Source: Thermoleophilia bacterium (GTDB lineage Bacteria; Actinomycetota; Thermoleophilia; Miltoncostaeales; Miltoncostaeaceae). From it: a DNA stretch of 36,128 bases. Below are positions 11,976 through 25,469 of this stretch, in pieces (the first letter of the stretch is position 1; each line of letters opens with the position of its first letter). Under the pieces are notes generated by a model. The model did not search any database, had not been told where the DNA came from, and was given only the letters and a program-made list of their open reading frames with translations. Made by a program: the position numbers and the translations under genes. The stretch lies in contig JALOLS010000017.1 in NCBI GenBank assembly GCA_025455865.1, positions 1 to 36,128 of the forward strand, in the 5' to 3' direction.

Positions 11976-12334
11976 ACCGTCCGGGCGGTGTCGCCGCCGT
12001 TGACGACGGAGCCGCCGCCGATCCCGGTCACCGCGCGCACGCCGGCGCCGGCGTCCTCCATCATGAAGCGGCCCGGGGTCCCGAACACCGTGACGCCGTC
12101 GACCCCCACCAGGCTGTAGCCGTGGCCCGAGAGGCCGGTGCCGTCGAGCAGGTACGGGGTCGCGACCGGGCACTGGGCGGTGGGGAGGGGGATCTGACGC
12201 TTGGCGGGGATGGTCACGTCCACCGTGCGGAAGGACGACTCGGCGGCGGCGGCCGGGGCGGCGGCGCCCGCGAGGGCGGCGGGCAGGAGCAGGGCACCGA
12301 CGAGGGTGCGGCGGAGGGCGGCGGTGCGGGTCAT
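11918..12334 (-). CDS. Small secreted protein, member of a three-gene co-regulated family
   Basis: A 138-residue exported protein of unknown function. The signal peptide covers about 1-31 (MTRTAALRRTLVGALLLPAA...). The mature part has CPVATPYLLDGTGLSGHGYS and, near the end, VYVQLACTDDLG. This ordering (Cys-Pro-x-x-x-Pro-Tyr-Leu, then a C-terminal xxxxCT block) is shared with the two secreted proteins encoded at 24196 and 24874, of which it is a distant relative; the two conserved cysteines may form a disulfide. ATG 12334 follows AGAGGA. Upstream lies the same palindrome-42 bp-GGGACGCT promoter architecture as in the two relatives. It is directly downstream of a NarL-type two-component system, which may control it. 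Confidence 0.8.
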   Translation of the reverse strand: MTRTAALRRTLVGALLLPAALAGAAAPAAAAESSFRTVDVTIPAKRQIPLPTAQCPVATPYLLDGTGLSGHGYSLVGVDGVTVFGTPGRFMMEDAGAGVRAVTGIGGGSVVNGGDTARTVYVQLACTDDLGRALAARS

Positions 12335-12370: not shown

Positions 12371-12437
12371 AGCGTCCCGCGGCACGGCCCCGGCGCCGAT
12401 GGCGGCTCCGCCACACCCGAGGTGGTGCCAGGACCAC
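12371..12437 (-). promoter_or_regulatory. Shared operator-promoter module, copy 1
   Basis: On the plus strand: AGCGTCCC (12371-12378), 42 bp, then GGTGGTG with the palindrome GTGGTGC-CA-GGACCAC (12422-12437, one mismatch between arms). Read in the direction of the gene, the 7-2-7 palindrome is upstream, GGGACGCT comes 42 bp later and the ATG 36 bp after that. The same order and the same 42-bp gap occur at 24750-24816 and 25403-25469. This copy lies between the response-regulator gene and the secreted-protein gene. Confidence 0.75.
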
Positions 12438-12455
12438 ACGGGCCCCGGCGGGCGG

Positions 12456-13118
12456 TCAGCGCCCGGCGCCCTCGTCCCGGCCCAGGTACATGAGCACGGC
12501 CTTCACCCGGCGGTGGTCCTCGGGGGCCGGGGGCAGCCGCAGGGTCCCGAAGATCGCCGCGATGTGGCGGGCCACGGCCTTCTCGGTCACGAACAGGCGG
12601 CCGGCGATGGCCGCGTTGCTCATGCCCTCGGCCATGAGGGAGAGCACCTCGCGCTGGCGGGGGGTGAGGTGGTCCACCGGGTCGTCGCGCCGCCGCCGGC
12701 CGACCATCACCGCGACGACCTCCGGGTCGATGGCCGACCCGCCCGCCGCCACCCGGTCGAGGGCGTCCATGAAGGCGTCCACGTCCATCACCCGCTGCTT
12801 GAGCAGGTAGCCCACCCGCTCCGCCCCCCCGGCCAGGAGCTCCAGGGCGCCCTCCTCGTCGACGTGCTGGGAGAGGACGACGATGGCCGTCTCCGGCCGC
12901 CGGGCGCGGATCTCGAGCGCCCCGCGCAGGCCCTCGTCGGTGTGGGTCGGGGGCATCCGGATGTCGGTGATGACCAGGTCCGGCGCGTGGTCGCGCGCCC
13001 GGCGCACGAGCTCCGGGCCGTCGGACGCCGTGGCCACCACCTCGTGGCCCTCGTCGGTGATCAGCCGAACCAGGCCCTCGCGCAGCAGCGTCTCGTCCTC
13101 GGCGATCAGGACGCGCAC
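12456..13118 (-). CDS. NarL/FixJ-family response regulator
   Basis: A 220-residue two-component regulator. The receiver domain has the acidic pair near residues 7-8 (IAEDE), the phospho-acceptor D52 in VITDIRMP, the conserved Ser at 83 (VVLSQ) and K107 (GYLLKQ). The C-terminal LuxR-type helix-turn-helix spans about 150-207 (LTPRQREVLSLMAEGMSNAAIA...). GTG 13118 lies inside the last codons of the kinase gene (13-nt overlap), so the pair is co-translated. Family members bind 7-2-7 inverted repeats as dimers; a 7-2-7 palindrome lies just beyond its stop codon in front of the secreted-protein gene, a likely target. What signal it answers to is unknown. Confidence 0.94.
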   Translation of the reverse strand: MRVLIAEDETLLREGLVRLITDEGHEVVATASDGPELVRRARDHAPDLVITDIRMPPTHTDEGLRGALEIRARRPETAIVVLSQHVDEEGALELLAGGAERVGYLLKQRVMDVDAFMDALDRVAAGGSAIDPEVVAVMVGRRRRDDPVDHLTPRQREVLSLMAEGMSNAAIAGRLFVTEKAVARHIAAIFGTLRLPPAPEDHRRVKAVLMYLGRDEGAGR

Positions 13119-14776
13119 GGGATCCTCGCCTCCACCGTCGTGCCGGCGCCGGGCGGGGAGTCCACCCGCAGCGTCCCGCCGAGCGCCTCCACCCGGTCGG
13201 CCAGGCCCCGCAGGCCGCTGCCCTGCGCCGGGTCGGCGCCGCCCTCGCCGTCGTCGCTCACCCGCACCACCAGGTCGCCGTCCTCCGCCGACAGACGGAC
13301 GTCCGCCGCGGTCGCGCGAGCGTACTTGACGGTGTTGGCGAGCGACTCGGCCATCACGAAGTAGGCGGTCGCCTCGACCTCCGGGGCGGGCCGGGCGCCC
13401 AGGCCCTCGGCGGCCACCGCGACCGGGATGGGCGTGCGGCCGGCGAGCCACCGGGCCGCCCCCTCGGCCCCGCGCTCCACCAGGGGCGCCGGCATGATCC
13501 CGTGGACCAGGGCCCGCAGCTCGTCGAGGACGTCGGCGAGGCCGCGGGTGAGGTCGCCGGCCGCGACCCGCACCCGCTCCGGATCCTCGGCCCGCCGGGC
13601 GATCCGCTGGGCGTCCAGGCCCAGGGCGACGATGCGCTGCTGGGCGCCGTCGTGCAGGTCGCGGGCGATTCGCCGGCGCTCCTCGTCGCCGGCCACCACG
13701 ATCCGCCGGCGCGACCGGGCGAGCTCGGCGAGCGCGGCGCGCAGCTCGGCGGTCAGGCGCCGCCGGGCGATCGCGAGCCCGGCCACCCGGGCGACCTCGT
13801 CGACCAGGGCCTCGTCGGCGATCAGGCCGGCGTCGTAGACGATCGCTCCCACCACCCGGTCGCGGTCGCGCACCTCGGCCGCCCGCCGGCCCTCGCCCCA
13901 GGGCGGCCCGGCCGGCCGGCCGGCCTCGTCGACCAGCGCCGTGCCGTCGTCCCGGGCGAACAGGACGCGGGCCCCGTCGTCGCCGAGCGCGCCGGCGATG
14001 GCCGTGCGCAGGGCGTCCGGCCCCTCGTCGTCGATGCGGGCCACCAGCTCGCCGAGCTCGCCGGCCCGGGCGAAGCCACCGGACGAGAGGGCGATCAGGA
14101 ACGCGAGCGGAAGGCCCATGAGGACCGGCGTCTGGACCACGCCGACCTCGTCGGCCAGCCCGGTGTCGGCCGCCAGCGCGGCGGCCAGCGTGACGAGCAG
14201 GGCGAGCAGCCCGTAGGCGTCGAGCAGCCGCAGCGTGCGGCGCTCCCGCGCCGGCGCCCGGGCGATCCGCCGGGCCAGCAGCACGATCGCCCCCGCGAGC
14301 GCCCCGAGGCCGACCGCGGCCTGCACGGCGAAGAGCGCGTCGGCCGCCCCCGGCGCGTCGGCCGCCTGGAGCACGCTGTCGCCGGCCAGCAGCCACTGCG
14401 GCACCTGCAGCACGACCGAGGCCGTGTACCCGGCGGCCACCACCGCCCGGGGCGCGCGGCCGTCCACCCGGCCGCTCGGAAACGCCATCAGCAGGTGGAG
14501 GGTCATCGCGAGCGGCAGCGTGTCGAGCACCAGCCCGGCGGCCCGGGGGCCCGGAAGCGCCGCCTCCGAGAGGCCGGAGGCGAGGAACGCCATGCCCGTC
14601 GCCACCATCAGCAGGCCGAAGCGGTTGTGCGGCCGCCGCCAGGCCGCGACCAGGCCGCCGGCGGTGAACACGGCGGCGACCAGCGGCGGGATCACCACCT
14701 CGGCGGGGGTGGCCTCGGGGTTGTCGGCCACCACCGCGGCGGCCAGCAGGATGAGCGCCCCGGCCAGGGCGCCCAC
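13106..14776 (-). CDS. Membrane sensor histidine kinase, NarL-type (HisKA_3)
   Basis: A 556-residue kinase with roughly eight hydrophobic segments in the first 240 residues and no large extracellular loop, so it probably senses something in or at the membrane. A GAF-like linker follows (about 240-330). The catalytic part has the HisKA_3 phospho-acceptor (RDLHDGAQQRIVALG), the N box (ESLANTVKYA), G1 (VSDDGEGG) and G2 (GSGLRGLADRVEALGG). It overlaps the response-regulator gene and is its evident partner. GTG 14776 is the conservative start; a CTG at 14839 overlapping the hydrolase stop, with GGAG before it, would add an Arg-rich cytoplasmic N-terminus that fits the positive-inside rule better. 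Confidence 0.93.
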   Translation of the reverse strand: MGALAGALILLAAAVVADNPEATPAEVVIPPLVAAVFTAGGLVAAWRRPHNRFGLLMVATGMAFLASGLSEAALPGPRAAGLVLDTLPLAMTLHLLMAFPSGRVDGRAPRAVVAAGYTASVVLQVPQWLLAGDSVLQAADAPGAADALFAVQAAVGLGALAGAIVLLARRIARAPARERRTLRLLDAYGLLALLVTLAAALAADTGLADEVGVVQTPVLMGLPLAFLIALSSGGFARAGELGELVARIDDEGPDALRTAIAGALGDDGARVLFARDDGTALVDEAGRPAGPPWGEGRRAAEVRDRDRVVGAIVYDAGLIADEALVDEVARVAGLAIARRRLTAELRAALAELARSRRRIVVAGDEERRRIARDLHDGAQQRIVALGLDAQRIARRAEDPERVRVAAGDLTRGLADVLDELRALVHGIMPAPLVERGAEGAARWLAGRTPIPVAVAAEGLGARPAPEVEATAYFVMAESLANTVKYARATAADVRLSAEDGDLVVRVSDDGEGGADPAQGSGLRGLADRVEALGGTLRVDSPPGAGTTVEARIPCAS

Positions 14777-14835
14777 GGCGGCCAGGGCGGCGCCGGGCGC
14801 ACCCCGTCCCTCGGGGCCGGGGCGGCGGCCGGGGG

Positions 14836-15465
14836 TCAGCGTCGCTCCGGTGCGAGGGTGGCGAGCCAGTCGCGCACGGCCGGGCCGACGTCCGCGATGC
14901 CGGCCGCGAGGGAGTGGGTGCCGGGCACCCGGACCACGCGGCGACCGGGACCGGGCTCCGGCATCCCGAACGGGTCGCTCAGCCCCTGGACCACGAGCAC
15001 CGGGACCGCCACGGCGTCGAGCTCTCCCTGCCGGCTCGGGCCGGGCTCACGGCCCCGGCGCGCCGGCGGGCGCAGGGGGAAGGCCAGGCACAGCACCGCG
15101 TCGGCCCCGGTGTCCGCCGCCGTGCGGCAGGCCACCCGGGCGCCCGAGGACCGCCCGCCGGTCACCAGCGGCCCGCCGGCGAGCGGCCCGGCCCGGAGCT
15201 CGGCCACGACCGCACGCCACGCGGCGTCGAGCTGCCGCGCGGGGGCGGGCCCGCGCCGGCCGGCGACGCGGTAGGGCTGCTCCACGAGCGCCACCGCCAG
15301 CCCGAGGCCGAGCGCCGCGTCGCCGGCCGCGACCAGGTCGGCGGCCTCCACGCCGCCCCCGGCGCCGTGCCCGAGCACCAGCGCCCCCCGGATCCCGCCC
15401 CCGGGGCGGGTCAGGTGGGCGCGGGCGGGGCCGTGGGGGGTGGGGACTTCCAGCGCCTCGGGCAT
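14836..15465 (-). CDS. Alpha/beta hydrolase (dienelactone hydrolase / KANL3-Tex30 type)
   Basis: A 209-residue cytoplasmic hydrolase. The oxyanion region is LVLGHGAGGG (about 29-38), the nucleophile elbow is GGRSSGARVA with the second Ser of G-x-S-x-G as catalytic residue, the acid probably lies in VQGLSDPFG and the His in PGTHSLAAG. The length and motif spellings fit the KANL3/Tex30-like branch of alpha/beta hydrolases, whose bacterial substrates are unknown. It is first in an operon with the histidine kinase and regulator: its stop (14836) is close to or overlaps the kinase start. A TAGCGT box ends 8 nt before the ATG, suggesting a nearly leaderless operon mRNA. Confidence 0.87.
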   Translation of the reverse strand: MPEALEVPTPHGPARAHLTRPGGGIRGALVLGHGAGGGVEAADLVAAGDAALGLGLAVALVEQPYRVAGRRGPAPARQLDAAWRAVVAELRAGPLAGGPLVTGGRSSGARVACRTAADTGADAVLCLAFPLRPPARRGREPGPSRQGELDAVAVPVLVVQGLSDPFGMPEPGPGRRVVRVPGTHSLAAGIADVGPAVRDWLATLAPERR

Positions 15466-15473
15466 CGGCCGCG

Positions 15474-15479
15474 ACGCTA
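15474..15479 (-). promoter_or_regulatory. -10 box of the hydrolase-kinase-regulator operon
   Basis: TAGCGT on the minus strand followed by 8 nt and the ATG at 15465. Its first base is the outermost base of the terminator hairpin of the upstream gene. Confidence 0.45.
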
Positions 15480-15516
15480 CCGCCTCCCCGGGGGATGGGG
15501 GCCCCGGGGAGGCGGT
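15479..15516 (-). terminator. Perfect 15-bp terminator hairpin after the chemoreceptor
   Basis: ACCGCCTCCCCGGGG (15479-15493) pairs perfectly with CCCCGGGGAGGCGGT (15502-15516) around an 8-nt loop. It begins 3 nt after the TAG of the chemoreceptor gene (15520-15522), the standard position for an intrinsic terminator, although no U-tract follows. Confidence 0.8.
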
Positions 15517-15519
15517 GAC

Positions 15520-17214
15520 CTACACCCGGAAGCCGGCGACCAGGGCCTCGAGCGTCGCGGCGCGCTCGGCCAGGTGGCGGGTCTGGGCGGCGAGCTCGGC
15601 CACGGTCGCGGTGGTCTCCTCGCTGGCGGCGGCCACCTCCTGGGCGGCGGCGGCGTTCTCCTCGCTGACCGCGGCCACCGAGGCGATGCCCTCCTCGGCC
15701 TCGTGGGCGCCGGCCTCGAGCTCCTGGGCGGCGGCGGCCACCTGCTGCACCTGGCCGGCCACCCGGCCGACCTCGGCCCGGATGCGGGCGAACGCCTCGG
15801 CGGCGGCCTGGACGCGGGCGGTGCCGTCCTCGACCTCGCGCTCGCCGCGGACCATGGCCGCGACGGCCCGGTCGGTCCCCTCCTGGATCTCGCCGACGAT
15901 GCCCGCGATGGACGCGGCCGCGGTCTGGGCCGACTCGGCGAGCTTGCGCACCTCGTCGGCGACCACCGCGAAGCCCCGGCCCTGCTCGCCGGCCCGGGCG
16001 GCCTCGATGGCGGCGTTCAGGGCGAGGAGGTTGGTCTGGTCGGCGATCTCCCCGATGGTCCCGACGATCTGGCCGATGGCCTGACCCTTGCCGCCCAGGT
16101 CGCCCACCACGGCGGCGACCTGGCCCACCGAGTCGCGGATGCGCGCCATGGCGTCCCCCGCCTGGTCGACGGCGTCGGCGCCGCCGCCCGCGGCCTGGTC
16201 GGCGTCGGCCGCCGCACCCGCGGCCTCCTGGCCGGCGGCGGCGACCTGGTGGACGCGGCGGCCCATCTCGCCGATGGCCCCGCTCACGCCCTCGGTGGCG
16301 GTCGCCTGCTCGCCCGAGCCGCGGGCGACGCCGTCCACGGTGGCGGCGATCTGCGCCACGGCCTGCCCGGCCTGCTCCGACCCCGCGGCCATGTCCGCGG
16401 AGCTGGTGGCCACGTCGCGGGCGCTCTCGGCCACCCGGGCGACCACCTCGCGGGTACGGCCGATCATCTGCGCGACGCCGCGGCTGAGCCGCCCGACCTC
16501 GTCGGGGCTCGCGTCGTCGGGGGTGACGGTGAGGTCGCCCTCGGCCGCCGCCGCCGCCGCGACCTCGAGCCGCCCGATGGGGCGGAGCACCGACCGGGCG
16601 ATGAGCCACGCGAACAGCACGCCGATTCCGAGCGCGCCGGCGAGCAGCACGAGCAGCATGAGCTGGGCCCGTCCGGCGGCGCCGGCCGCGGCCTGCTCAC
16701 CGGCGGCAAGCGCCTGCCGGGACTCGTCGATCAGGGCCACGAGGTCCTTCATCAGCGCCATGCGCGATTCGGCCGCCGGGGGGACGGCGGCGTCGACCTC
16801 GGCCTTCGGCGCCCCGCGGCGCAGCAGGTCGACCAGCCCGTCGTACAGGGGGGCGGTACGGCGCCAGCCGGCGCTGATCCGGGCCGCGGCGGCCCGGTCG
16901 GCGGATCCCGCCGAGGCGTCGGCGACCCGGCGGACGTCCCGGTCCATCGCCGCCCGGGCGGCGTCGTAGCCGTTGAGCTGGGTCCGGTCGCCCGAGGCGA
17001 TGAACGTCCGGATGGCGAGGGCCTGGTCGGCCAGGGAGAGACGGGCGTCCTGGCCCGCCATCGCCGCCGTCGCCTCGTGGGCGATGACCCGGTCGTAGCC
17101 GGAGACCGCCGAGCGGAGCTGGAGGATGCCCATGACCCCGAGGGCGAGGGCGAGGGCGAGGACGGCGCCGAACCCCAGGGCGAGGCGCGGACCGAGTCGG
17201 AGGCGTCTGAGCAT
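15520..17214 (-). CDS. Methyl-accepting chemotaxis protein
   Basis: A 564-residue transmembrane chemoreceptor. TM1 is near residues 12-32; a short four-helix-bundle sensor domain (about 35-185) is followed by TM2 ([20 protein letters not shown], about 191-212), a HAMP domain ([20 protein letters not shown]...) and a long Ala-rich helical signalling domain. The hairpin tip carries the hallmark [20 protein letters not shown] and [14 protein letters not shown], the site that binds the kinase CheA and coupling protein CheW. The C-terminus (EALVAGFRV) has no receptor pentapeptide for methylation enzymes. The ATG at 17214 follows CGGAG. No other chemotaxis gene is in the window, so the ligand and output are open. 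A 170-nt leader precedes it. Confidence 0.95.
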
Positions 17215-17362
17215 GGCAGGGCTCCGTGCGGTTCAGGCGGTGGCCCAGGGGGCGTGGGGGCACCGCGGTTCCCTCCGGGGGTCGGCCGCGGACGCCGCGT
17301 CTTTCGAGGCGCGCCGGGCTCTGAGGGTGGATCGCCATCAGATCGACATGGAGCTGATAGCC

Positions 17363-17386
17363 GACGCCCATCGGCGCCGGGGCATC
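17363..17386 (-). terminator. Hairpin at the end of the 17385-18422 gene
   Basis: GACGCCC (17363-17369) and GGGCATC (17380-17386) form a 7-bp stem containing one G-U pair with a 10-nt loop, overlapping the TGA stop at 17385-17387. It would end transcription of that gene before the chemoreceptor leader. No U-tract. Confidence 0.4.
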
Positions 17387-18422
17387 AGTTCGGCCAGCGC
17401 ACCGCCGTACGGGTCTCCACGTTGGCCGAGCCCCGGCCGGTCCCGGGCCGGAGCGGGCCGGCGCCGGGGCGCGGGAGCGTGAACACCACGCCGTTGCCGC
17501 AGCAGGCCTCCCGCTCGTCGACCGCCACGCCGGCGCGCACCCACTGGCGCACCGCCCGCCCGGGCCCCGGCGCCGGGCGCGCCCCGCGTCCCCGGGGGTC
17601 GGTGTAGACGACGGCCGGGCCCCGGGGGGTGATGTGCCAGCGCGGGTGGATGACCGCGCGCTTGTCCCCCTTGCAGTGGCTCGCCCACCCGGCCGGGTCG
17701 CCGGGCCCGCAGGCCGCGCGGTTGAACACCAGCCGCCCGGGGTCGGAGAAGTCCACCCGGGTGGTCGCGTTGTCCACGTCGAACGCGATGCCCCGGGCGC
17801 CGAAGCGGCCCACCCGCAGATCGGTGTTCCAGCTCTCATAGACGCTCTCGCAGCCGGCGGCGGGGAGCAGCCGCATGCTCAGCCGCACCCGGGCGCCGGG
17901 GCAGTTCGGCACCGCAGGCCCGAAGTCGGCCATCGCGCGCACCCGGGCGAGCGGCGTGCGTCCGGTCCGGCGCGCCATCCAGACCTCCAGCGTGTGGTGG
18001 CGCACCGACGCCCGGCGCGCCGATCCGGTCCCCTGGTGCAGCAGGACCATCCAGGCCTTGCCCAGGCGGTCGTCGGCCACCACGAACACCTTGAAGCCGG
18101 CGTGGGGCTCCTCGGCCCCGCCGGCCGCCGCCAGCTCGCCGAACGCGGGCATCCCCGCCCAGCGCGCGGCCGGGAACCCGCGCGGGTCGGCGCCGTGCTC
18201 GTGGCCGAAGGCGCAGCGGTGGACCGGGTCCACCGGCGGGTGCCAGGTCGGCCACCTGCGGCCGTCGGCGCCGGTGGTCGCGTACCGGTCGTGCACCGCC
18301 GGCGGGCAGACCGGGAGGCCGTCCGGGGTGCGCTCGGGGGCGGGCCCGGCCACCGCGGCGGCCACGGTCAGCCCGAGGGCGCCGAGCGCCGCGGCGGGCA
18401 GCAGGAGGGCGGGAGCGCGCAC
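17385..18422 (-). CDS. Secreted protein of unknown function with HEHG motif
   Basis: A 345-residue exported protein. The signal peptide (about 1-25, MRAPALLLPAAALGALGLTVA) precedes a mature part rich in His, Trp and Cys: LPVCPPAVHDRYATTG, WPTWHPPVDPVHRCAFGHEHGADPRGF, HHTLEVWMARRTGRT, CESVYESWNTDLRVG and HCKGDKRAVIHPRWHITPRG. I have seen this type as a conserved hypothetical in actinobacteria but know of no function; the clustered His (RCAFGHEHGADP) could bind a metal. GTG 18422 is preceded by TAGCCT with a 6-nt gap, a leaderless arrangement, which supports this start. It is monocistronic, with a hairpin at its end. Cysteines in pairs suggest disulfides outside the cell. Confidence 0.75.
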   Translation of the reverse strand: MRAPALLLPAAALGALGLTVAAAVAGPAPERTPDGLPVCPPAVHDRYATTGADGRRWPTWHPPVDPVHRCAFGHEHGADPRGFPAARWAGMPAFGELAAAGGAEEPHAGFKVFVVADDRLGKAWMVLLHQGTGSARRASVRHHTLEVWMARRTGRTPLARVRAMADFGPAVPNCPGARVRLSMRLLPAAGCESVYESWNTDLRVGRFGARGIAFDVDNATTRVDFSDPGRLVFNRAACGPGDPAGWASHCKGDKRAVIHPRWHITPRGPAVVYTDPRGRGARPAPGPGRAVRQWVRAGVAVDEREACCGNGVVFTLPRPGAGPLRPGTGRGSANVETRTAVRWPN

Positions 18423-18428
18423 CGGGTC

Positions 18429-18434
18429 AGGCTA
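18429..18434 (-). promoter_or_regulatory. -10 box, leaderless, for the 17385-18422 gene
   Basis: TAGCCT on the minus strand followed by 6 nt and the GTG at 18422. Confidence 0.45.
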
Positions 18435-18595
18435 GGACCGGTGACCGGGCCGCGGCCGGGACGGGCCGCGGATGATGGAGGGTTCGGGCGGTTCGGTGCG
18501 TCGGCGCCGCCGCCCGGGCGGTCGGGACCCCGTGCATCCGGCCCATCCCCGTACCCTCGGCGGCGGGAGACGGCGACCGAGGAGGGACGACCCCG

Positions 18596-19063
18596 ATGAC
18601 CGCCCGTGCGGATTTCACCGACCAGGAGTGGGAGACGCTCCGCGAGGGGCCGGCGAGCGCCGGCATGCTCGTCATCCTGGCCCACCGCGGGGGGAGTGTC
18701 CGCGAGACGATCTCGATGGCCAAGGCCTACGCCGACGCCCAGCGCATGCACGGCCGCGTCGACCTGCTGGGCCTGATCGTGGCCGACAAGCCCGAGGTGG
18801 ACCGCCCGCCCGCGCACTCCACCGACGAGGTGCGCGCCGCGCTGGCGCAGAACGTGCGCGATGCGGTGGCGGTGGCCGAGGCGAAGGCCGACGCACAGGA
18901 GGCCGCCGCCTACCGCGCGTTCGTGCTCGAGGTCGCGCTCAGGGTGGCGAACGCCCGTCGGGAGGGCTTCCTGGGCCTGCACGGCGAGCGGGTCGGCCCG
19001 GAGGAGCGCGCCGCCCTGGAGCAGGTGGCGCAGGCCGTCGACCTGCCGTTGCCCGAGGGGTAG
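18596..19063 (+). CDS. Conserved cytoplasmic protein of unknown function
   Basis: A 155-residue, mostly helical protein beginning ADFTDQEWETLREGPASAGMLVIL and continuing GGSVRETISMAKAYADAQ. I recognise this layout from actinobacterial hypothetical proteins that resemble the helical TerB-like fold, but no function is established. Long amphipathic helices occupy about 78-130 (VRAALAQNVRDAVAVAEAKA...). It ends with ALEQVAQAVDLPLPEG. There is no signal peptide or membrane segment. ATG 18596 follows GGAGGG with suitable spacing, and a TACCCT -10-like box lies at 18550-18555, about 40 nt upstream. It is followed by the peptidase gene after 86 bp, in the same direction, but that gene appears to have its own promoter. 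Confidence 0.8.
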   Translation: MTARADFTDQEWETLREGPASAGMLVILAHRGGSVRETISMAKAYADAQRMHGRVDLLGLIVADKPEVDRPPAHSTDEVRAALAQNVRDAVAVAEAKADAQEAAAYRAFVLEVALRVANARREGFLGLHGERVGPEERAALEQVAQAVDLPLPEG

Positions 19064-19134
19064 GGCCGCCGCAACGCGAGAACCGGCGGGGGCGATCCGC
19101 AACGCCGATTGCGCCCCCTGCCGGGGGGCACGGC

Positions 19135-19140
19135 TACGCT
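19135..19140 (+). promoter_or_regulatory. -10 box of the M23-type peptidase gene
   Basis: TACGCT followed by 9 nt and GTG 19150. The same hexamer forms the two -10 boxes of the TetR/MFS divergent promoter at 23498-23539. Confidence 0.4.
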
Positions 19141-19149
19141 CGGCGGCCG

Positions 19150-20325
19150 GTGCCCTCCCGCCGTCGCCACCGGCGACCGCGCCGCCTGGTCCTCGCCGCC
19201 GTCGCGGCCGGGACGCTCGCGGCCGCGGCGCCGGCCCTCGCCGAGCCCGCCGCCATCCGCGAGCAGCGGGCCGAGGTCGCGCGCCTGTCCGAGCGCCTGG
19301 GGGCGCTCGACGCCCGCCTGGCCGACGCCACCGCGCGCCTCCAGGCCTCACAGGGGCGCCTGCGGGCGGTCGTGGAGCGGATGCGCCGCAACCGCGTGGT
19401 GCTGATCCGGGTGACCCAGGAGCTCGACCGCTCGCGCGGGGTGCTGGCCGGGCGCCTGGTCGACCTCTACACCCGCCCCGACCCCACGTTGGCCGACCTG
19501 CTGGTGGGGACCGAGAGCGTCACCGGGATCGTCTCCGAGCTCGGCGCCATCGAGCGGGCCGGGCGCCAGGACGGCGTGGTCGTCGGCCGCATCCGGGGCA
19601 CCCGGGTCGCGGTGGTCGCCCTGCGCCGGGAGCTCGCCCGTGACCGGGTGCTGCTGCGGCGGGAGACCGCCCAGGCCGAGGCCCGGCAGGCCGAGGTGGG
19701 CGGGCTGGTGGAGCGCCAGCGGGACGTGCTGGCCGGGGCAGAGGGGGAGCTCCGGCGCCTGGTGGCCGCCGAGCGGGAGCGCCAGCGCCGTGAGGCCGAG
19801 CGGCGGCGGCGCGAGCGCGAGGAGCAGCGCCGGCGGGAGGCCGAGGCGCGCCGGCAGGCCGAGATCGCGCGTGAGCAGGCCGAGGCCTCCTCGGGCGGCT
19901 GGAGCCCGACCACCCCCACGTGGACCGCTCCGGCGCCCTCGGGCGGCGGCCTGGCCTACCCCCTCGGGGTGCGCGGCGACGTGGTCGGCACCCCGTACTC
20001 GGGCACCCACACCCTGGGCAACTGGCAGTCGGACCGCGCGCTCGACATCGTCATCCCCGTCGGCACGCCGGTCTACGCGGTGGACTCGGGCACGATCGGG
20101 AGCATCGGCGGCGGCGGGAGCGGACGCTTCGCGGGCATGAACCTGCACCTGAACACCGCCTCCGACTCCTTCTTCTACGCCCACCTGTCGTCGGTGGCGG
20201 TGTCCTCGGGCCAGTCGGTGAGCCGGGGCCAGGTCATCGCGTGGTCCGGATCGGCCAACGGCGTGCCGCACCTGCACATCGGGGTGCAGAACGGCGACCC
20301 CTACTCGGTGGCCGGCGGAGGCTGA
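19150..20325 (+). CDS. Secreted M23-type peptidase with coiled coil (LytM-like)
   Basis: A 391-residue exported protein with a basic signal peptide (about 1-31). Two long coiled-coil regions follow: about 38-120 (REQRAEVARLSERLGALDARL...) and an Arg/Glu-rich helix to about 250, the layout of EnvC/RipA-type cell-wall hydrolases or their activators. The C-terminal LytM/M23 domain (about 277-391) has FFYAHLSS and HLHIGVQNGD, giving the H-x-H zinc ligands (374, 376). The other zinc motif, usually H-x-x-x-D, reads SDRALDIV, without the His at the normal place; a His 11 residues before the Asp (THTLGNWQSDRALD) may substitute, or the domain is inactive and regulatory. GTG 19150 gives a proper signal peptide. 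Confidence 0.85.
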   Translation: MPSRRRHRRPRRLVLAAVAAGTLAAAAPALAEPAAIREQRAEVARLSERLGALDARLADATARLQASQGRLRAVVERMRRNRVVLIRVTQELDRSRGVLAGRLVDLYTRPDPTLADLLVGTESVTGIVSELGAIERAGRQDGVVVGRIRGTRVAVVALRRELARDRVLLRRETAQAEARQAEVGGLVERQRDVLAGAEGELRRLVAAERERQRREAERRRREREEQRRREAEARRQAEIAREQAEASSGGWSPTTPTWTAPAPSGGGLAYPLGVRGDVVGTPYSGTHTLGNWQSDRALDIVIPVGTPVYAVDSGTIGSIGGGGSGRFAGMNLHLNTASDSFFYAHLSSVAVSSGQSVSRGQVIAWSGSANGVPHLHIGVQNGDPYSVAGGG

Positions 20326-20339
20326 GCCGGGCTCCGGCT
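20325..20339. terminator. Short bidirectional hairpin between convergent genes
   Basis: AGCCGG (20325-20330) and CCGGCT (20334-20339) form a perfect 6-bp stem with a 3-nt loop exactly across the 12-bp gap between the stops of the peptidase and the serine hydrolase genes. Confidence 0.4.
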
Positions 20340-21507
20340 ACGGCTGCAGGGCGGCGGCGAGCGCCTTGAAGATGGCCGGCGCCGGCGGGCCCTGGTCGGT
20401 CGGGATGTCGGAGTTGGCCAGCACGACGATCGAGGTGTCGGTGGCCGGGTCGTAGGCGATCTGGCTCGTGAAGCCGGGAAGCCGGCCGCTGTGGGCGAGC
20501 CAGCCGTCCTCCTCGCCGAGGCCGAAGAGATAGGCCCGTCCGTTGCCGACCGAGGCGGGATTGGGCCTCAGCCGTTCGCGCTGGGCCTCGGGGGAGATGA
20601 GCGACCCGGTGCCCACCGACCGCGTCCAGGTGCGGGTGTCGGCCAGGGTCGAGACGATGTCGCCGGCCGGGCCGGCGAAGGTCGGGCTCCAGGCCGTCGC
20701 GTTCACCGGCCTGCCGTCCTCGCTGAACTGCGTGGTGAAGCCCTGCCAGTGCGGGTCGGGGATCGCGGTGACGGTGGGGGCGCTCGACTGCCTCATGTCG
20801 AGCCGGTCGAAGACCCGCTCCTGCAGGGCCTCGGCGTAGGGCTTCCCGGTCTCGGCCTCGACGATCCTCCCGAGCATGACGAAGTTGGTGTTGGAGTACA
20901 GGAAGCCCTCGCCGGGCGGGAACCTGCGGGGGAGGGAGGTCCCCGCCGCGATGAGCTCATCGTTGGTGAACGTGCGCTCGGGATCGGCGCTGTACTCCTT
21001 CTGCACGGTGGGGTCGAGCGAGTAGGAGTCGATCCCGCTGCTCATGTTCCCGAGCATCCGCACGGTGATCTCGTCGCCGTCGGGCAGGTCGGGGAACCAC
21101 CGGGCGATCGGGTCGTCGAGGGCGAGCTTCCCCTCGTCCACCAGCTGCAGCACCATCGTCGCGGTGAAGGTCTTGGTGACCGAGGCGATGCGGGTGTACA
21201 GGTCGTCCTGGACCGGGGCGCGGGTGGCCGGATCGGCCGTGCCGCGGACGGCGGTCCACGGGGTCCCGTCGCCGCGGGACACGCTCACCATGACCCCCGG
21301 GGCCCTGGCGGCGCGGAAGGACGTGTCGAGGGCGCGCGTCAGCCGGGCCCGGGTGGCGGCGTCGATGGGGGCCGCGGCGGGGGCGGTGGTCGCCGCCGGC
21401 ACGGTGCCCGCGGTCGTGCCGGCCTCGTCGCCGCCTCCGCAGGCGGCCACGCCCAGGGCGAGCAGGGCGGACGCGCCCAGCGCGGCCAGCGTCCGGTTCA
21501 TGGTCAT
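20338..21507 (-). CDS. Lipoprotein serine hydrolase (beta-lactamase / DD-peptidase fold)
   Basis: A 389-residue lipoprotein of the class C beta-lactamase superfamily. The N-terminus has a signal peptide with lipobox LGVAAC, so the mature enzyme is tethered to the outer face of the membrane by its Cys; a Thr/Ala/Pro-rich linker follows. Catalytic motifs are SVTK (about 107-110, after YTRIA), Y-S-N in EGFLYSNTNFVMLG and H-S-G in WLAHSGRLPGF. ATG 21507 is chosen because GGAG lies 5 nt before it. It shares the fold but little obvious sequence with the enzyme at 3046-4167. Likely a peptidase or esterase acting at the cell wall; substrate not evident. Confidence 0.93.
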   Translation of the reverse strand: MTMNRTLAALGASALLALGVAACGGGDEAGTTAGTVPAATTAPAAAPIDAATRARLTRALDTSFRAARAPGVMVSVSRGDGTPWTAVRGTADPATRAPVQDDLYTRIASVTKTFTATMVLQLVDEGKLALDDPIARWFPDLPDGDEITVRMLGNMSSGIDSYSLDPTVQKEYSADPERTFTNDELIAAGTSLPRRFPPGEGFLYSNTNFVMLGRIVEAETGKPYAEALQERVFDRLDMRQSSAPTVTAIPDPHWQGFTTQFSEDGRPVNATAWSPTFAGPAGDIVSTLADTRTWTRSVGTGSLISPEAQRERLRPNPASVGNGRAYLFGLGEEDGWLAHSGRLPGFTSQIAYDPATDTSIVVLANSDIPTDQGPPAPAIFKALAAALQP

Positions 21508-21600
21508 CGGCACTCCGGCGGGTCGAGGAAACCGCCGGAACCGTATCGACCGCCCCCGCAGGCCGCGCGGGAACCGCGAGCCCGGGAGGGCGGCCTCCGG

Positions 21601-21786
21601 CTACGCCGGCTGGAGCATCGACCGCACGGCCTCCCGGATCACCTCGTCCGAGTCGGTGTGGCCGTGCTTGGAGCGCGCGTGCTCCACGGCGGCGTCGAGG
21701 ACGTCATCCTCGGGCCCCTCGATGACCAGCGTGCAGTTGCTCTCGCTGGGCATCTGACCGCAGTCGACCCGCACCCGATTCTCCAT
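21601..21786 (-). CDS. DUF1059 small protein
   Basis: A 61-residue protein with the DUF1059 pattern: VDCGQMPSESNCTLVIEGPEDDVLDAAVEHARSKHG followed by DSDEVIREAVRSML. The family is small and cytoplasmic, with a Cys-Gly near the N-terminus and an A-x-x-H-A-x-x-x-H-G motif; its function is not known. ATG 21786 is preceded by AAAGGGGG. The preceding gene (DUF2892) in its present form reads into the first 83 nt of this gene in another frame, which looks abnormal. Confidence 0.88.
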   Translation of the reverse strand: MENRVRVDCGQMPSESNCTLVIEGPEDDVLDAAVEHARSKHGHTDSDEVIREAVRSMLQPA

Positions 21787-22204
21787 GCGGTTCCCCCTTT
21801 CCCGTAGGACGGTGCCCGGGGACCGTCCCACTCCCGGCGCCCGGGGTCAAGGCCGGGTCTCGCCCACGCCGGCCCCGCGTGGGCCGCCGGGCGGAGCGCG
21901 ACCCGATGTGGGCCGTCTCCGCCCGGCGGCGCCGAGCCGGCGTCACCGCTCCCGGGCGGCCGTGCTCATGGAAGGGTCCACAGACCGGCTGCGCGGTCTT
22001 GGCGCGCGAGCAGGTGTTGACCTTGACGAGCGGGTAGAGGGGGCAGAAGCCGACGGCGGAGGTCAGGAGCATGACGCCGGCGACGACGAACAGGATGATG
22101 CCGCCGATCGAGCCCGGGCCGATCAGGATCGCGGCGATGATCGCGGCCGGCGCGACCACGAAGGCGCGCAGCAGGCGGTCGGCGGTCCCCATGTTGCGGG
22201 TCAT
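21704..22204 (-). CDS. DUF2892 membrane protein with run-on C-terminus
   Basis: Residues 1-66 match DUF2892 proteins: MTRNMGTADRLLRAFV, then two hydrophobic helices (AIIAAILIGPGSIGGIILFV, AGVMLLTSAVGFC) and PLYPLVKVNTC. Such proteins normally stop a few residues later at about 65-75. Here the frame continues for 100 Arg/Gly/Pro-rich residues to a TGA at 21704, overlapping the DUF1059 gene. This points to a lost stop codon or frameshift near 22000-22010; the extension is probably not functional sequence. ATG 22204 has an excellent ribosome binding site (GGAGGGAA). The conserved part is a small two-helix membrane protein of unknown function, sometimes found with sulfur-transfer domains. Confidence 0.75.
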   Translation of the reverse strand: MTRNMGTADRLLRAFVVAPAAIIAAILIGPGSIGGIILFVVAGVMLLTSAVGFCPLYPLVKVNTCSRAKTAQPVCGPFHEHGRPGAVTPARRRRAETAHIGSRSARRPTRGRRGRDPALTPGAGSGTVPGHRPTGKGEPHGESGAGRLRSDAQREQLHAGHRGARG

Positions 22205-22284
22205 GTTCTTCCCTCCGGTGGGAGCGGTGTGGTCGGTTGCGCACCACTGACGCACGAGGGCCCCGGAGGGATACATCGCCCGGC

Positions 22285-23490
22285 TCACGCGGTCGCGGGC
22301 GCCCCCCGGGGCACGGCGGGCACCGGCGAGGCCACCGCCCGGGCGGCGAGCGGGGCCGCCGCCGCGGCCGCGGCCAGCACCCCGACGGCGACCGCGAGCG
22401 ATGCCTGCCCGCCGCCGGCGCTCACCACCATGCCGCCGGCCGCCTCCCCGCCGGCCAGGCCGACCGCAGTGAGCGAGGTCGACCACGCGAAGGCCTCGGT
22501 GGCGAGCCCGGCGGGCGCGGTCTCGGCGATGGCCTCGGCCTGCACGGCGATGGCCGGGGCCACGGTCACGCCCTGCAGCACGAGCAGCAGGCCGAGGCTC
22601 CACGCCGCGCCCGCGCCGATCGCAAGCGGCGCCGCGGCGAGCGCGGAGAGCCCGAGCAGGAGCACCAGGCGCTGGGAGACCGGCCGCCGGGAGGGATGCA
22701 GGGCCACCCAGGTGCCGCCGGCGAGGCTCCCCGCCGCCCACAGGGCGTGGAACACGCCGGCGAGCCACGGCGCGCCGAGCTCGTCGCCGCGGGCGATGAG
22801 GGAGATGTTCACCAGCCCGAAGAAGGCGCCCGCGAGCAGGGCCAGGAACGCCAGGCGCCGCACCGCGGGGGAGGCGAGCGCCGAGCCGCGTCGGCCGGCC
22901 GGGGCGGGGGCGCGGCCCCGCGTGAGGGGGGCCAGGAGCAGGGCGCCCGTGCCGGCGGCCATCACCAGTGCGGCCAGGCCCACCGCCGCGCGGGGCGAGA
23001 CCAGGGTGGCCACCAGCACGTGCAGCACCGGGCCGACGATGAAGACCACCTCCTGGGCCGTCGCGTCGACGGTGAGCAGGCGTTGGCGGGCGTCGCCGGT
23101 CGCGGTGCGGGCGACGATCGCGCGCACGCTCGCCTCGAGCGGGGGCGAGGCCAGGCCCGCCGCGCCGGCCAGGGCGACGAGCACCGGGGCCGGGAGCCAG
23201 GGCGCGGTGAGCGCGATCAGGATGAGCAGCCCGGCAGAGGCCGCCGCGGCGACGCCCAGCACCGGGCGGTAGCCCAGCCGGTCGGCCAGCCGGCCGAGCA
23301 CCGGGGTGGCCGCCGCCGCGCCGGCCACCAGCGTCCCGGACGCCAGGCCGGCCCAGGCGTATGAGCCGGTCGCGGCGAGCACCAGCAGCACCATGGGGAT
23401 CCCGATGGTGAGGTCGGGCAGGCGCGCCACCAGCGAGCTTCCGATGAGGTACGCCGGGCGCGCGACGAGCCGGTGGGTGCGCGGGGACAT
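22285..23490 (-). CDS. MFS transporter under TetR control
   Basis: A 401-residue transporter with about 12 hydrophobic segments. The motif A loop between helices 2 and 3 is LGRLADRLGYRPVLG (about 63-77), and a large cytoplasmic loop with LTRGRAPAPAGRRGS separates the two six-helix halves. Start ATG 23490 is supported by TACGCT 7 nt upstream, giving a leaderless mRNA; an upstream extension would cross the operator. It is divergent from a TetR gene across a perfect palindrome, the normal design of a substrate-induced efflux pump. The sequence most resembles the small-molecule efflux branch of the MFS; the substrate is unknown. Confidence 0.9.
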   Translation of the reverse strand: MSPRTHRLVARPAYLIGSSLVARLPDLTIGIPMVLLVLAATGSYAWAGLASGTLVAGAAAATPVLGRLADRLGYRPVLGVAAAASAGLLILIALTAPWLPAPVLVALAGAAGLASPPLEASVRAIVARTATGDARQRLLTVDATAQEVVFIVGPVLHVLVATLVSPRAAVGLAALVMAAGTGALLLAPLTRGRAPAPAGRRGSALASPAVRRLAFLALLAGAFFGLVNISLIARGDELGAPWLAGVFHALWAAGSLAGGTWVALHPSRRPVSQRLVLLLGLSALAAAPLAIGAGAAWSLGLLLVLQGVTVAPAIAVQAEAIAETAPAGLATEAFAWSTSLTAVGLAGGEAAGGMVVSAGGGQASLAVAVGVLAAAAAAAPLAARAVASPVPAVPRGAPATA

Positions 23491-23497
23491 GGGATCG

Positions 23498-23539
23498 AGC
23501 GTAGTGAATGGCGGTTCATTCAGCAAGCCGCGGTACGCT
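23498..23539. promoter_or_regulatory. TetR operator between two facing leaderless promoters
   Basis: The perfect inverted repeat TGAATG-GCGGTT-CATTCA occupies 23505-23522. It is flanked by two copies of the same -10 box: TACGCT on the minus strand (23503-23498), 7 nt before the MFS ATG, and TACGCT on the plus strand (23534-23539), 7 nt before the TetR GTG. For the MFS promoter a -35 TTGCTG (23526-23521) sits 17 bp from the -10, overlapping the operator edge. A bound TetR dimer would block both promoters. Confidence 0.8.
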
Positions 23540-23546
23540 TCGCCGC

Positions 23547-24206
23547 GTGCCGCGCCGCCGCCCCGACGATCGCCGTGCCGAGCTCCTGGACGCCCTGGCG
23601 GAGGTCGTCGCCGAGCGGGGCTTCGCCCGCACCCGGGTCGCCGACGTGGCGGCCCGCGCGGGGGTGAGCGTGGGCCTGCTGCACCGGTACTTCCCCTCGC
23701 TCGACGAGGCCCTGGCCGAGGCGTTCGCCCACGTGGCCGAGCGCGACCTGGCCGCCACCCGGGAGCGGCTGGCCGCCCGCCCGCCCCCGGAGCGGCTCTC
23801 GGCGCTGCTGGACGAGTGCCTGCCCGAGGCGGCCCACTCCTGGCGGGTGTGGATCGACGCCTGGGGCGAGGCCCTGCACCGTCCCGCGCTCCGGCGCACC
23901 GCGGAGGACTTCACCGCCCGCTGGCGCCAGGAGATCGCCGCGGCCCTGCGCGACGGCGAGGCCGGGGGCTGGTGGCGCTGCCCCGACCCCGACGGCCTCG
24001 CCGCCAAGGCCCTCGCCTGCCTGGACGGCATCGCCCTGCACGTCGCGCTCCACCCGCCGCCCGGCGGCGTCGAGCAGGCCGCCGGCTGGGTGCGGGAGAT
24101 CGTCGCCGCCGGCCTGGAGGCCCCCGACCCGGCCCCGGGGGCGCCGGAGCCGGGAGGTGGGGACGGGCCCCCGGGGCGAGGTCCGGGCCCGGCCGTCAGG
24201 CGATGA
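23547..24206 (+). CDS. TetR-family transcriptional repressor
   Basis: A 219-residue regulator. The N-terminal helix-turn-helix runs from about residue 8 to 55: DRRAELLDALAEVVAERGFA, then RVADVAARAGVSVGLLHRYFPSLDEALAEAF, the canonical TetR signature with the recognition helix around VSVGLLHRYF. The rest is an all-helical ligand-binding and dimer domain, including WIDAWGEALHRPALRR. The C-terminal 25 residues are Gly/Pro-rich and overlap the convergent secreted-protein gene by 11 nt. GTG 23547 sits 7 nt after TACGCT. It should repress itself and the divergent MFS pump through the palindrome at 23505-23522. Confidence 0.94.
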   Translation: MPRRRPDDRRAELLDALAEVVAERGFARTRVADVAARAGVSVGLLHRYFPSLDEALAEAFAHVAERDLAATRERLAARPPPERLSALLDECLPEAAHSWRVWIDAWGEALHRPALRRTAEDFTARWRQEIAAALRDGEAGGWWRCPDPDGLAAKALACLDGIALHVALHPPPGGVEQAAGWVREIVAAGLEAPDPAPGAPEPGGGDGPPGRGPGPAVRR

Positions 24207-24711
24207 TGGCGGCCAGGTTGGTCACGTCCTTGCCCAGCGCGGGGTTCGACGTGCACTTCATGATGATCTGGTACTGCTGAGACTCGAAGCTCCAGTTCAT
24301 CGCGCTGGAGTTCGGGAAGCCGGGCCGGATGCCGCTCAGGAGCAGGCGGCCGGGCAGGAACGGGTGCGCGACGCCGGCCGGGCCGGTGATCGAGACGTCG
24401 AGGTCCTTCGAGGAGCGGCGGACGAGGATCCCGCGCAGCGCGGAAGTGGGGTTGCCGTCGAACCGCTCGTCGACCAGGTAGGGGTGGGTGACCGGGCAGG
24501 TGAAGGCCGGCACGTACTCGTCGGCCAGGGGCTGCAGGGTGCGGACCGGCTTCTCCACCAGGCGGATGGTCGGGTCGGAGGTGCCGCCCTGGAACCCGCC
24601 CTCGGCCAGGGTGCCGGCCAGGGCGGCGGACGGGCCGGCGAGGGCGCCGAGGGCGACGGGGAGCAGGAGAGCGGTGCGGAGGGCGCGGGTGCGGTTGCGG
24701 CTGCGGGTCAT
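24196..24711 (-). CDS. Small secreted protein, tandem paralog A
   Basis: A 171-residue exported protein of unknown function with a basic signal peptide (MTRSRNRTRALRTALLLPVA..., about 1-32). The mature part shares long blocks almost word for word with paralog B: DPTIRLVEKPVRTLQP, THPYLVDERFDGNP, LDVSITGP, GFPNSSAMNW, MKCTSNP. Two cysteines (in TCPVTHPY and MKCTSNP) are conserved and may form a disulfide. ATG 24711 follows AGGAGG. Its 162-bp upstream gap contains the shared palindrome-42 bp-GGGACGCT module, so it has its own promoter although paralog B lies just upstream in the same direction. Length, secretion and repeats of the same motif set suggest an extracellular binding or structural role. 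Confidence 0.8.
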   Translation of the reverse strand: MTRSRNRTRALRTALLLPVALGALAGPSAALAGTLAEGGFQGGTSDPTIRLVEKPVRTLQPLADEYVPAFTCPVTHPYLVDERFDGNPTSALRGILVRRSSKDLDVSITGPAGVAHPFLPGRLLLSGIRPGFPNSSAMNWSFESQQYQIIMKCTSNPALGKDVTNLAAIIA

Positions 24712-24749
24712 CGGGGGCCTCCTGGGCGGTGGGTGGATCTGACGTCGAG

Positions 24750-24816
24750 AGCGTCCCGCGATCCGGTCCGCCCGCCGACGGCCCCCGCACCAGCCCCGCG
24801 GTGGTGCCTGCACCAC
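24750..24816 (-). promoter_or_regulatory. Shared operator-promoter module, copy 2
   Basis: Plus-strand order: AGCGTCCC (24750-24757), 42 bp, then a perfect 7-2-7 palindrome GTGGTGC-CT-GCACCAC (24801-24816). In gene direction the palindrome is distal, GGGACGCT lies 42 bp later and the ATG (24711) follows after 38 bp. Identical architecture to copies 1 and 3. Confidence 0.8.
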
Positions 24817-24873
24817 TTCGCGCCCGGGGGGCCATGGCCCGCGCACGGGCCGGCCCCCCGGGGCGCCATGGCC

Positions 24874-25365
24874 TCAGCCGATGATCCCCGCGGTGTCCGT
24901 CACGTCCAGGCCGAGGGACGGGTTCGAGGTGCACTTCATGACGATCTGATAGGTGTTCGGGACGAAGTCCCAGTTCATGGCGCTCGAGTTGGGGAAGCCG
25001 GCCTTGATGCCGTGCAGGAGCTGGCTGCCGGCGCGGAAGGGGTGCTCGATGCCCTGCGGGCCGGTGATCGAGACGTCCAGGTTGGCCGACGAGCGCCGCA
25101 CGATGATGCCGCGGAGCGCCGAGGCCGGGTTGCCGTCGAACCGCTCGTCCACCAGATAGGGGTGGGTGTCCGGGCAGGTGGAGGCGGGCACGAACTCGTC
25201 GGCGAAGGGCTGCAGGGTGCGGACCGGCTTCTCGACCAGGCGGATCGTCGGGTCGGGCCCGCCGACCTGGTACCCGTCGTCGGCGAGGGCCAGTGCGGGA
25301 GCGGCCAGGGCCGCGGCGGCGGCCGGGATCATCAGGGCGGCGCGAAGGGCGCGGGAGCGGGTCAT
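24874..25365 (-). CDS. Small secreted protein, tandem paralog B
   Basis: A 163-residue exported protein with signal peptide about 1-28 (MTRSRALRAALMIPAAAAAL...). It is a close copy of the protein encoded just downstream (paralog A) and a distant relative of the one at 11918: shared features are the block ending CP-x-THPYLVD, an internal GPQGIEHPF/GPAGVAHPF segment, PNSSAMNW and a C-terminal YQIVMKCTSNP. Two conserved Cys suggest a disulfide. ATG 25365 is preceded by GAGGAGG. The upstream gap (25366-25481) holds copy 3 of the operator-promoter module. The A/B pair clearly arose by tandem duplication that included the control region. Function unknown. Confidence 0.8.
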   Translation of the reverse strand: MTRSRALRAALMIPAAAAALAAPALALADDGYQVGGPDPTIRLVEKPVRTLQPFADEFVPASTCPDTHPYLVDERFDGNPASALRGIIVRRSSANLDVSITGPQGIEHPFRAGSQLLHGIKAGFPNSSAMNWDFVPNTYQIVMKCTSNPSLGLDVTDTAGIIG

Positions 25366-25402
25366 CGGGGGCCTCCTCGGGAGGGATCGGAGTGACGCGT
25401 CA

Positions 25403-25469
25403 AGCGTCCCGCCCCGCGCGTCCCGGGCCGACGGCCGCCGCACCACCGCGCAGGTGGTGCCCGCACCAC
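25403..25469 (-). promoter_or_regulatory. Shared operator-promoter module, copy 3
   Basis: AGCGTCCC (25403-25410), 42 bp, then the perfect 7-2-7 palindrome GTGGTGC-CC-GCACCAC (25454-25469) on the plus strand. In gene direction GGGACGCT is 37 bp before the ATG (25365). A further GGTGGTGC-type half repeat lies within the 42-bp segment of this copy and of copy 2. Confidence 0.8.

Follow-up and report, generated by a model that had tools for sequence, protein, structure and literature searches.

A palindrome at a fixed position upstream of secreted-protein genes and a cyclase gene in a Thermoleophilia genome: a putative NarL-type activator regulon

A 16-bp palindrome was found at one fixed position upstream of at least eight predicted promoters on six contigs of a Thermoleophilia bacterium, three of them in the stretch of 36,128 nucleotides analysed here (hereafter the window; contig C178 of a genome of 3,163,586 bases in 186 contigs), and these promoters almost certainly form one real regulon. 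Its targets would be the members, seven as far as detectable, of a lineage-specific family of small secreted proteins with two cysteines, together with a gene for a stand-alone class III nucleotidyl cyclase. In the explanation that we favour, a dimeric activator would bind the palindrome, centred ~ 65 bp before the predicted transcription start, and would recruit RNA polymerase to a weak promoter from upstream in a class I manner; the activator would most likely be a NarL/FixJ-type response regulator, with the one encoded at 12456-13118 and worked by the kinase encoded at 13106-14776 as first choice. A dimeric activator on sigma-A-type promoters is probable and its being a NarL-type regulator is slightly favoured; that it is this very regulator falls somewhat short of even, and the statement as a whole (regulon, class I activation and a NarL/FixJ-type activator, most likely 12456-13118 with its kinase) we regard as evenly poised. 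An earlier sequence-only reading of the window had suggested, among other things, an undescribed regulon in which an activator site keeps a constant distance to the promoter, and the whole-genome evidence favours this.

Palindrome sites and the secreted-protein family

Within the window, GTGGTSC-n2-GCACCAC lies 5' of three minus-strand genes; GGGACGCT comes 43 bp after it, and the ATG a further 36-38 bp on. The sequence-only reading had located these palindromes correctly, down to the one arm mismatch in the first, and its distance of 36-38 bp from GGGACGCT (minus strand, 12371-12378, 24750-24757 and 25403-25410) to the ATG was reproduced (36, 38 and 37 bp, respectively). The gap between palindrome and GGGACGCT, given there as 42 bp, is 43 bp in all three, and the contrast drawn there between the spacer of copy 1 and those of copies 2 and 3 does not stand (identity of 61% and 58%, against 58% between copies 2 and 3).

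12422..12437, minus strand: palindrome copy 1, GTGGTCC-TG-GCACCAC, one arm mismatch
24801..24816, minus strand: palindrome copy 2, exact
25454..25469, minus strand: palindrome copy 3, exact
11918..12334, minus strand: secreted-family gene 1, 138 amino acids, signal-peptide-like start, two Cys; the weakest family member
24196..24711, minus strand: secreted-family gene 2, 171 amino acids, matched by the family profile
24874..25365, minus strand: secreted-family gene 3, 163 amino acids, protein P0001, matched by the family profile

Three palindromes with up to two mismatches occur in the window against 0.59 expected, a number reached in 4 of 100 shuffles; by themselves the window statistics are modest evidence, and it is the genome that decides. 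Genome-wide, six exact palindromes were found (two in C178 and one each in C63, C103, C106 and C108), where a composition or first-order Markov model predicts 0.04. One-mismatch palindromes numbered three (window copy 1, C56 and C174; 1.7-1.8 expected) and two-mismatch palindromes 12 (35-38 expected), so that the excess is limited to exact copies. The shortfall of two-mismatch palindromes (12 against ~ 35; the reversed pattern occurs 185 times at up to two mismatches) may reflect avoidance of stray near-sites, or codon use.

Sites and genes match one to one. The first base of each of the six exact palindromes, and of window copy 1, lies 98-106 bp 5' of a start codon that belongs to a family gene, and all seven secreted-family genes detectable within the sensitivity of the profile have a palindrome. 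The genome scan that the sequence-only reading had called for (palindrome, then GGGACGC after 35-50 bp) returned three places in 3.16 Mb, all at the window genes and with no random genome-wide scatter; this two-part pattern is confined to the window because GGGACGCT is the window version of a more variable element.

Proteins of the family are small, with a signal-peptide-like start, from which secretion is predicted, and two conserved cysteines. The seven genes with sites were the source of profile A1, which is to that extent circular, whereas P0001 was used blind to the sites; as a lone query, P0001 gave four matches in the genome, itself included, which lie on C178 (two), C103 and C106. The seven-row profile gave seven matches with E-values of 1.9e-36 or lower, the next best being 0.05. 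Leave-one-out profiles recovered all seven members, at 1.1e-12 or better over the full length; with the first 25 residues removed, gene 1 came back at 2e-5 and each of the remaining six at 1.9e-15 or better. The decoys in this test included copies of family genes, so that its non-family scores offer no comparison. When a profile was made from the four blind hits, likewise without the first 25 residues, it found the members on C108 (2.8e-14) and C63 (6.6e-9) and, far less well, gene 1 (0.0027). Identity to P0001 is 29-35%, with one member at 72%.

None of 13 sequences of the secreted proteins matched Pfam at E ≤ 0.1 (one chance-level match at 0.18) or NCBIfam, the best result for the secreted domain in a PDB sequence search had an E-value of only 0.17, and a search of viral contigs with profile A2 returned no relatives. 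The predicted structure of P0001 has strands throughout (mean pLDDT 80, pTM 0.69); for most of residues 41-150 the block confidence exceeds 90, with values of 73-84 at residues 71-90. Compared with known folds, the model gave a best Foldseek E-value of 0.09 and a best VIA-align Z of 4.5; the latter match, to part of a phage depolymerase (root-mean-square deviation 3.2, 83 aligned residues), is too weak to name a fold for the modelled protein. Our guess is that the products act outside the cell as binding or coat proteins and may contain a disulphide.

The settings of two family genes outside the window deserve mention. That on C108 (L007 1601-3016) lies in an open frame of at least 470 codons, well past the family length, and its protein is unlike the family after about residue 160, possibly owing to a downstream insertion or an assembly join. 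That on C106 (L006 1525-2223) lies directly 3' of a sigma-70-family gene (Sigma70_r2, 3.5e-13). Near the C103 palindrome, a tRNA-Arg gene (anticodon cct; L005 1570-1642) begins ~ 54 bp away on the other strand, and the site therefore sits between divergent genes.

The palindrome could in principle act as an RNA hairpin, as a terminator or a leader element that follows the upstream gene, since a 6-bp stem with a 4-base loop is possible (-8.2 kcal/mol) and, by eye, the palindrome lies close behind the upstream stop codon in several loci. What is conserved, however, is the sequence and not the pairing: there are no compensatory changes in eight copies, and in both variant arms an inner pair is lost or weakened. 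No T-run follows the palindrome, longer folds do not outperform those of shuffled sequence (z of 1.34 and -0.60), no Rfam family was found at the site in the window and five loci (two tRNAs elsewhere only), and at C103 the tRNA gene on the other side faces away, so that no gene ends there. We give this explanation almost no credence.

Promoter elements and the eighth target

Column statistics were computed on seven copies aligned at the palindrome (155 columns tested, 77% GC setting). Invariant T39, A63 and T67 stand out, none of 20,000 random columns being as extreme; C40, G41, G65 and several other G/C columns do not vary either, but in so GC-rich a genome each of them carries little weight by itself (p 0.004-0.006). 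All six named positions hold in 8/8 copies, the eighth copy having been found with a pattern that contains them, and the base after the palindrome is always C. Across the eight copies the order is palindrome, RTCGSY, 18 bp and gAnGnT at fixed distances, the spacer being 17 bp if the -35 hexamer is shifted one base to the right. The -10-like hexamers are GACGCT (three copies), GAGGAT (two), GATGCT, CAGGCT and GAGGGT, with the A, G and T of gAnGnT kept throughout.

12395..12400, minus strand: -35-like ATCGGC, copy 1 (column statistics on seven copies; eight copies)
12371..12376, minus strand: -10-like GACGCT, copy 1, within GGGACGCT at 12371-12378; predicted start ~ 12364
24774..24779, minus strand: -35-like GTCGGC, copy 2 (column statistics)
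24750..24755, minus strand: -10-like GACGCT, copy 2 (column statistics)
25427..25432, minus strand: -35-like GTCGGC, copy 3 (column statistics)
25403..25408, minus strand: -10-like GACGCT, copy 3 (column statistics)

The GGGACGCT box of the sequence-only reading is present in the three window copies, but as a fixed element it was rejected, as five of eight copies deviate there from what is a variable -10-like element; the -35-like element had been missed. The second-position A and sixth-position T are the two most important bases of a -10 hexamer, and on that ground RTCGSY and gAnGnT are read as putative weak sigma-A-type -35 and -10 hexamers. Both bases, and a distance of 17 ± 1 bp to the -35 hexamer, occur in all eight copies, the hexamers being otherwise poor. 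The predicted transcription start is the 74th base from the first base of the palindrome, which would place the palindrome centre at about -65.5 if the -10-like element is real. Activation rather than repression is predicted.

Alternatively, RTCGSY and gAnGnT could be the -35 and -10 elements recognised by an alternative sigma factor, to which the palindrome would be an additional site. TCG and A-G-T are invariant at fixed spacing in 8/8 copies, the -10 never begins with T, and the C106 target lies just behind the sigma-70-family gene, all of which would fit. However, the A at -11, the T at -7 and the 17-18 bp spacer match the sigma-A type, a GGAAC like that of extracytoplasmic function (ECF) promoters is absent from the elements, and a lone alternative sigma factor needs no 16-bp palindrome further upstream. 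We consider this explanation improbable, and the unusual sigma-factor promoter that the sequence-only reading had offered as an alternative becomes less likely in the light of the invariant -10 A and T and of the spacing.

A search for the full architecture (palindrome and both boxes, up to three mismatches) found eight places in the genome and none with the reversed control; the expectation is 0.0007 places with no more than two mismatches and 0.015 with exactly three. The one-mismatch site on C56 was not among them, its promoter boxes being absent in this search. The eighth place, C174:189-255, departs from the pattern at two positions, and an ATG lies 103 bp away from the base at which its palindrome begins. 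The gene that begins there leaves the end of C174, and C150 opens with the same 34 bases and keeps the frame to a stop. The joined protein of 201 residues scores 35.2 bits with PF00211 (cut-off 21.9; the C150 part alone scores 20.1 bits, under the cut-off), its closest solved relative is Ma1120 (4wp3, E 1.3e-26), and by sequence it is a stand-alone class III nucleotidyl cyclase with a single catalytic domain, like the Ma1120-type enzymes. It differs from Ma1120 in having His instead of Asn in the motif before AAR, and in lying under an operator common to secreted-protein genes. The description of the targets as related small exported proteins of unknown function therefore holds for the seven family genes and fails for the eighth.

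This eighth target also bears on whether the sites are mere passengers of gene duplication, the family having carried its upstream DNA along as it spread, so that the conservation would reflect ancestry. Seven of the eight targets are paralogues, and the identity in spacer 1 and in the leader is above that of shuffled sequence (0.496 against 0.362 and 0.387 against 0.316, respectively; 0/1000 shuffles reach either). Spacer 2 (0.476 against 0.455 shuffled, reached in 151/1000) and the flanking 40 bp on the upstream side (0.345 against 0.345, 515/1000), however, are at background, and the palindrome stretch is 89% identical across copies even though the proteins, one member apart, share only about a third of their residues with P0001. 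Because the cyclase gene is unrelated to the secreted family, the sites are not mere passengers, and we consider this explanation very unlikely.

The candidate reader of the palindrome

A response regulator gene and a histidine kinase gene lie directly 5' of gene 1 on the same strand.

12456..13118, minus strand: NarL/FixJ-type response regulator, receiver and LuxR-type helix-turn-helix (HTH), GTG start codon at 13118; candidate for reading the palindrome
13106..14776, minus strand: histidine kinase, HisKA_3 and HATPase_c, with a 13-bp overlap with the regulator gene; likely partner

The pair has the domains of a NarL-type regulator with its kinase (Response_reg 2.2e-19, GerE 2.3e-11, HisKA_3 1.2e-12), the best solved relatives of the regulator are VraR and NarL, and the N-terminal half of the kinase is hydrophobic by eye. 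This regulator is tentatively the leading candidate for reading the palindrome, in view of the 7-2-7 geometry, the position of the site, its adjacency to gene 1 and its unusual recognition helix. The helix reads AVARHIA, where the third place is E in all 13 close homologues and EKH is found in 11; two of the 13 are paralogues in the same genome. The comparison covered 18 loci, among which L060 and L066 gave no match, L092 is the regulator itself and the distant L058 (K) and L065 (R) fall outside the 13. NarL K188, V189 and K192, reportedly base readers (Maris 2002), align with A, R and A here, the first of these being the third place just mentioned. In RcsB the base-reading residues K180 and S184 lie in the same helix, according to a passage of PMC5829831. 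The altered helix fits a changed target sequence, without amounting to proof.

All eight sites of the full architecture are inverted repeats of 7-bp arms 2 bp apart, as in NarL/FixJ-type sites. They resemble those of the Escherichia coli NarL/NarP regulon in these two 7-base inverted arms and in a single dimer site upstream of a weak promoter. A NarL-type regulator with a kinase is likewise present, although its link to the site is here a prediction. A passage of PMC7419079 describes many NarL sites as 7-2-7 inverted repeats and an ogt promoter derivative with a single 7-2-7 site at -67.5 as NarL-dependent, and an extract of PMC7380067 has NarP binding 7-2-7 sites only. The natural ogt sites lie at -44.5 and -77.5, whereas here a single site holds one fixed position in 8/8 copies; unlike those of NarL/NarP, the targets here are secreted proteins and a cyclase. 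At uhpT, the site of UhpA, a member of the NarL/FixJ family, is near -64, similar to the position predicted here. The UhpA site there is found 30 bp downstream of a CRP site at -103, and UhpA is essential (PMC5352689). In contrast to uhpT, a second activator site was not recognised here, and there are eight targets instead of one.

Several observations weigh against the explanation that we favour. The NarL heptamer consensus is TACYYMT, which the arms here (GTGGTGC) do not follow. Only one of the eight sites adjoins the regulator, and the genome has 31 LuxR-type HTH matches, 29 of them over the cut-off and at least one a sigma-factor gene. Similar regulators occur in all 61 genomes searched, which makes co-occurrence uninformative for naming the regulator, and several site-less relatives carry ones that are 50-60% identical, so that the distribution of the regulator does not follow that of the sites. 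The -10 starts with G in seven copies and with C in one, the -35 is poor, and the identity kept in spacer 1 and the leader leaves room for a trace of shared ancestry. Finally, the cyclase target would fit a cyclic-nucleotide receptor equally well.

The last point belongs to a broader alternative, in which another dimeric regulator (of the CRP/FNR, GntR or another family), encoded elsewhere, reads the palindrome and the cyclase feeds a cyclic-nucleotide receptor. The stand-alone cyclase as eighth target and the single site beside the NarL-type regulator speak for it. CRP sites, TGTGA-n6-TCACA, have the spacing GTG-n8-CAC, however, whereas all eight copies here have GTG-n10-CAC; GntR-type TGGT half-sites occur at other spacings, and 7-2-7 is the documented NarL/NarP geometry. 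We consider this alternative rather unlikely, though the strongest of those weighed here. By its sequence features, the system looks like a NarL-type activator regulon and is a candidate member of that group.

Elsewhere in the window lie two serine beta-lactamase fold genes (PF00144; 3046-4371 and 20338-21513), three major facilitator superfamily (MFS) transporters and a chemoreceptor (15520-17214).

Distribution and significance

In 398 other sampled genomes of the class, the full architecture gave six single matches, all with three mismatches, while the reversed control matched in 13 genomes; the architecture is particular to this genome among those searched, the relatives all being of other genera. 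Neither the strict two-part pattern nor a relative of P0001, used alone, was found in 60 relatives. The exact palindrome occurs at three places in three of 41 other genomes of the family, with the boxes in place at none, against 13 places in 12 genomes for the reversed control, which is chance level. One of these sites, in another genus of the family (G008:C165, L050, 127-142), lies ~ 104 bp before an ABC-transporter-like gene; its promoter differs and looks more ordinary by eye (TTGCGG, TAGGTT), and the palindrome may be there by chance.

Homologues of the secreted domain in the 398 class genomes were clear in G209 (four domains, best E 6.5e-19) and marginal in G166 and G190, in a search that scored the eight best candidates per genome and may miss distant homologues. 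By eye the G166 match looks unrelated, and that in G190 spans the signal-peptide part only (profile 1-44). The domain also occurs in AC_9 and Candidatus Dormiibacter metagenome-assembled genomes, and twice in one protein (among L039, L040, L041 and L042). Stretches rich in Gly and Asp, RTX-like by eye, precede it in AC_9, Dormiibacter and three of the four G209 domains. The surroundings of the G209, AC_9 and Dormiibacter homologues contain no complete palindrome of this type. The secreted domain apparently represents an undescribed domain family.

Narrow word searches of the open-access literature found no paper on this regulon, the matches listed being off topic by title, and we know of little experimental work on Thermoleophilia. 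Eight near-identical operators fixed to the base are seldom so plain from sequence alone, and they offer a ready assay, with one short DNA, one nearby candidate regulator and eight targets. A secreted domain that has other partners in Solirubrobacterales and Candidatus Dormiibacter metagenome-assembled genomes is here tied to a signal and to a cyclic-nucleotide enzyme, which suggests that one signal also shifts the cyclic nucleotide level via the cyclase. More speculatively, and with less confidence than we place in the regulator as reader, a two-component system with a re-targeted NarL-type regulator may form an undescribed signalling circuit that switches on, from promoters of identical build, the entire lineage-specific family of secreted beta-rich proteins together with a cyclase, so that an outside signal would set both the exported coat or binding proteins of the cell and a second messenger.

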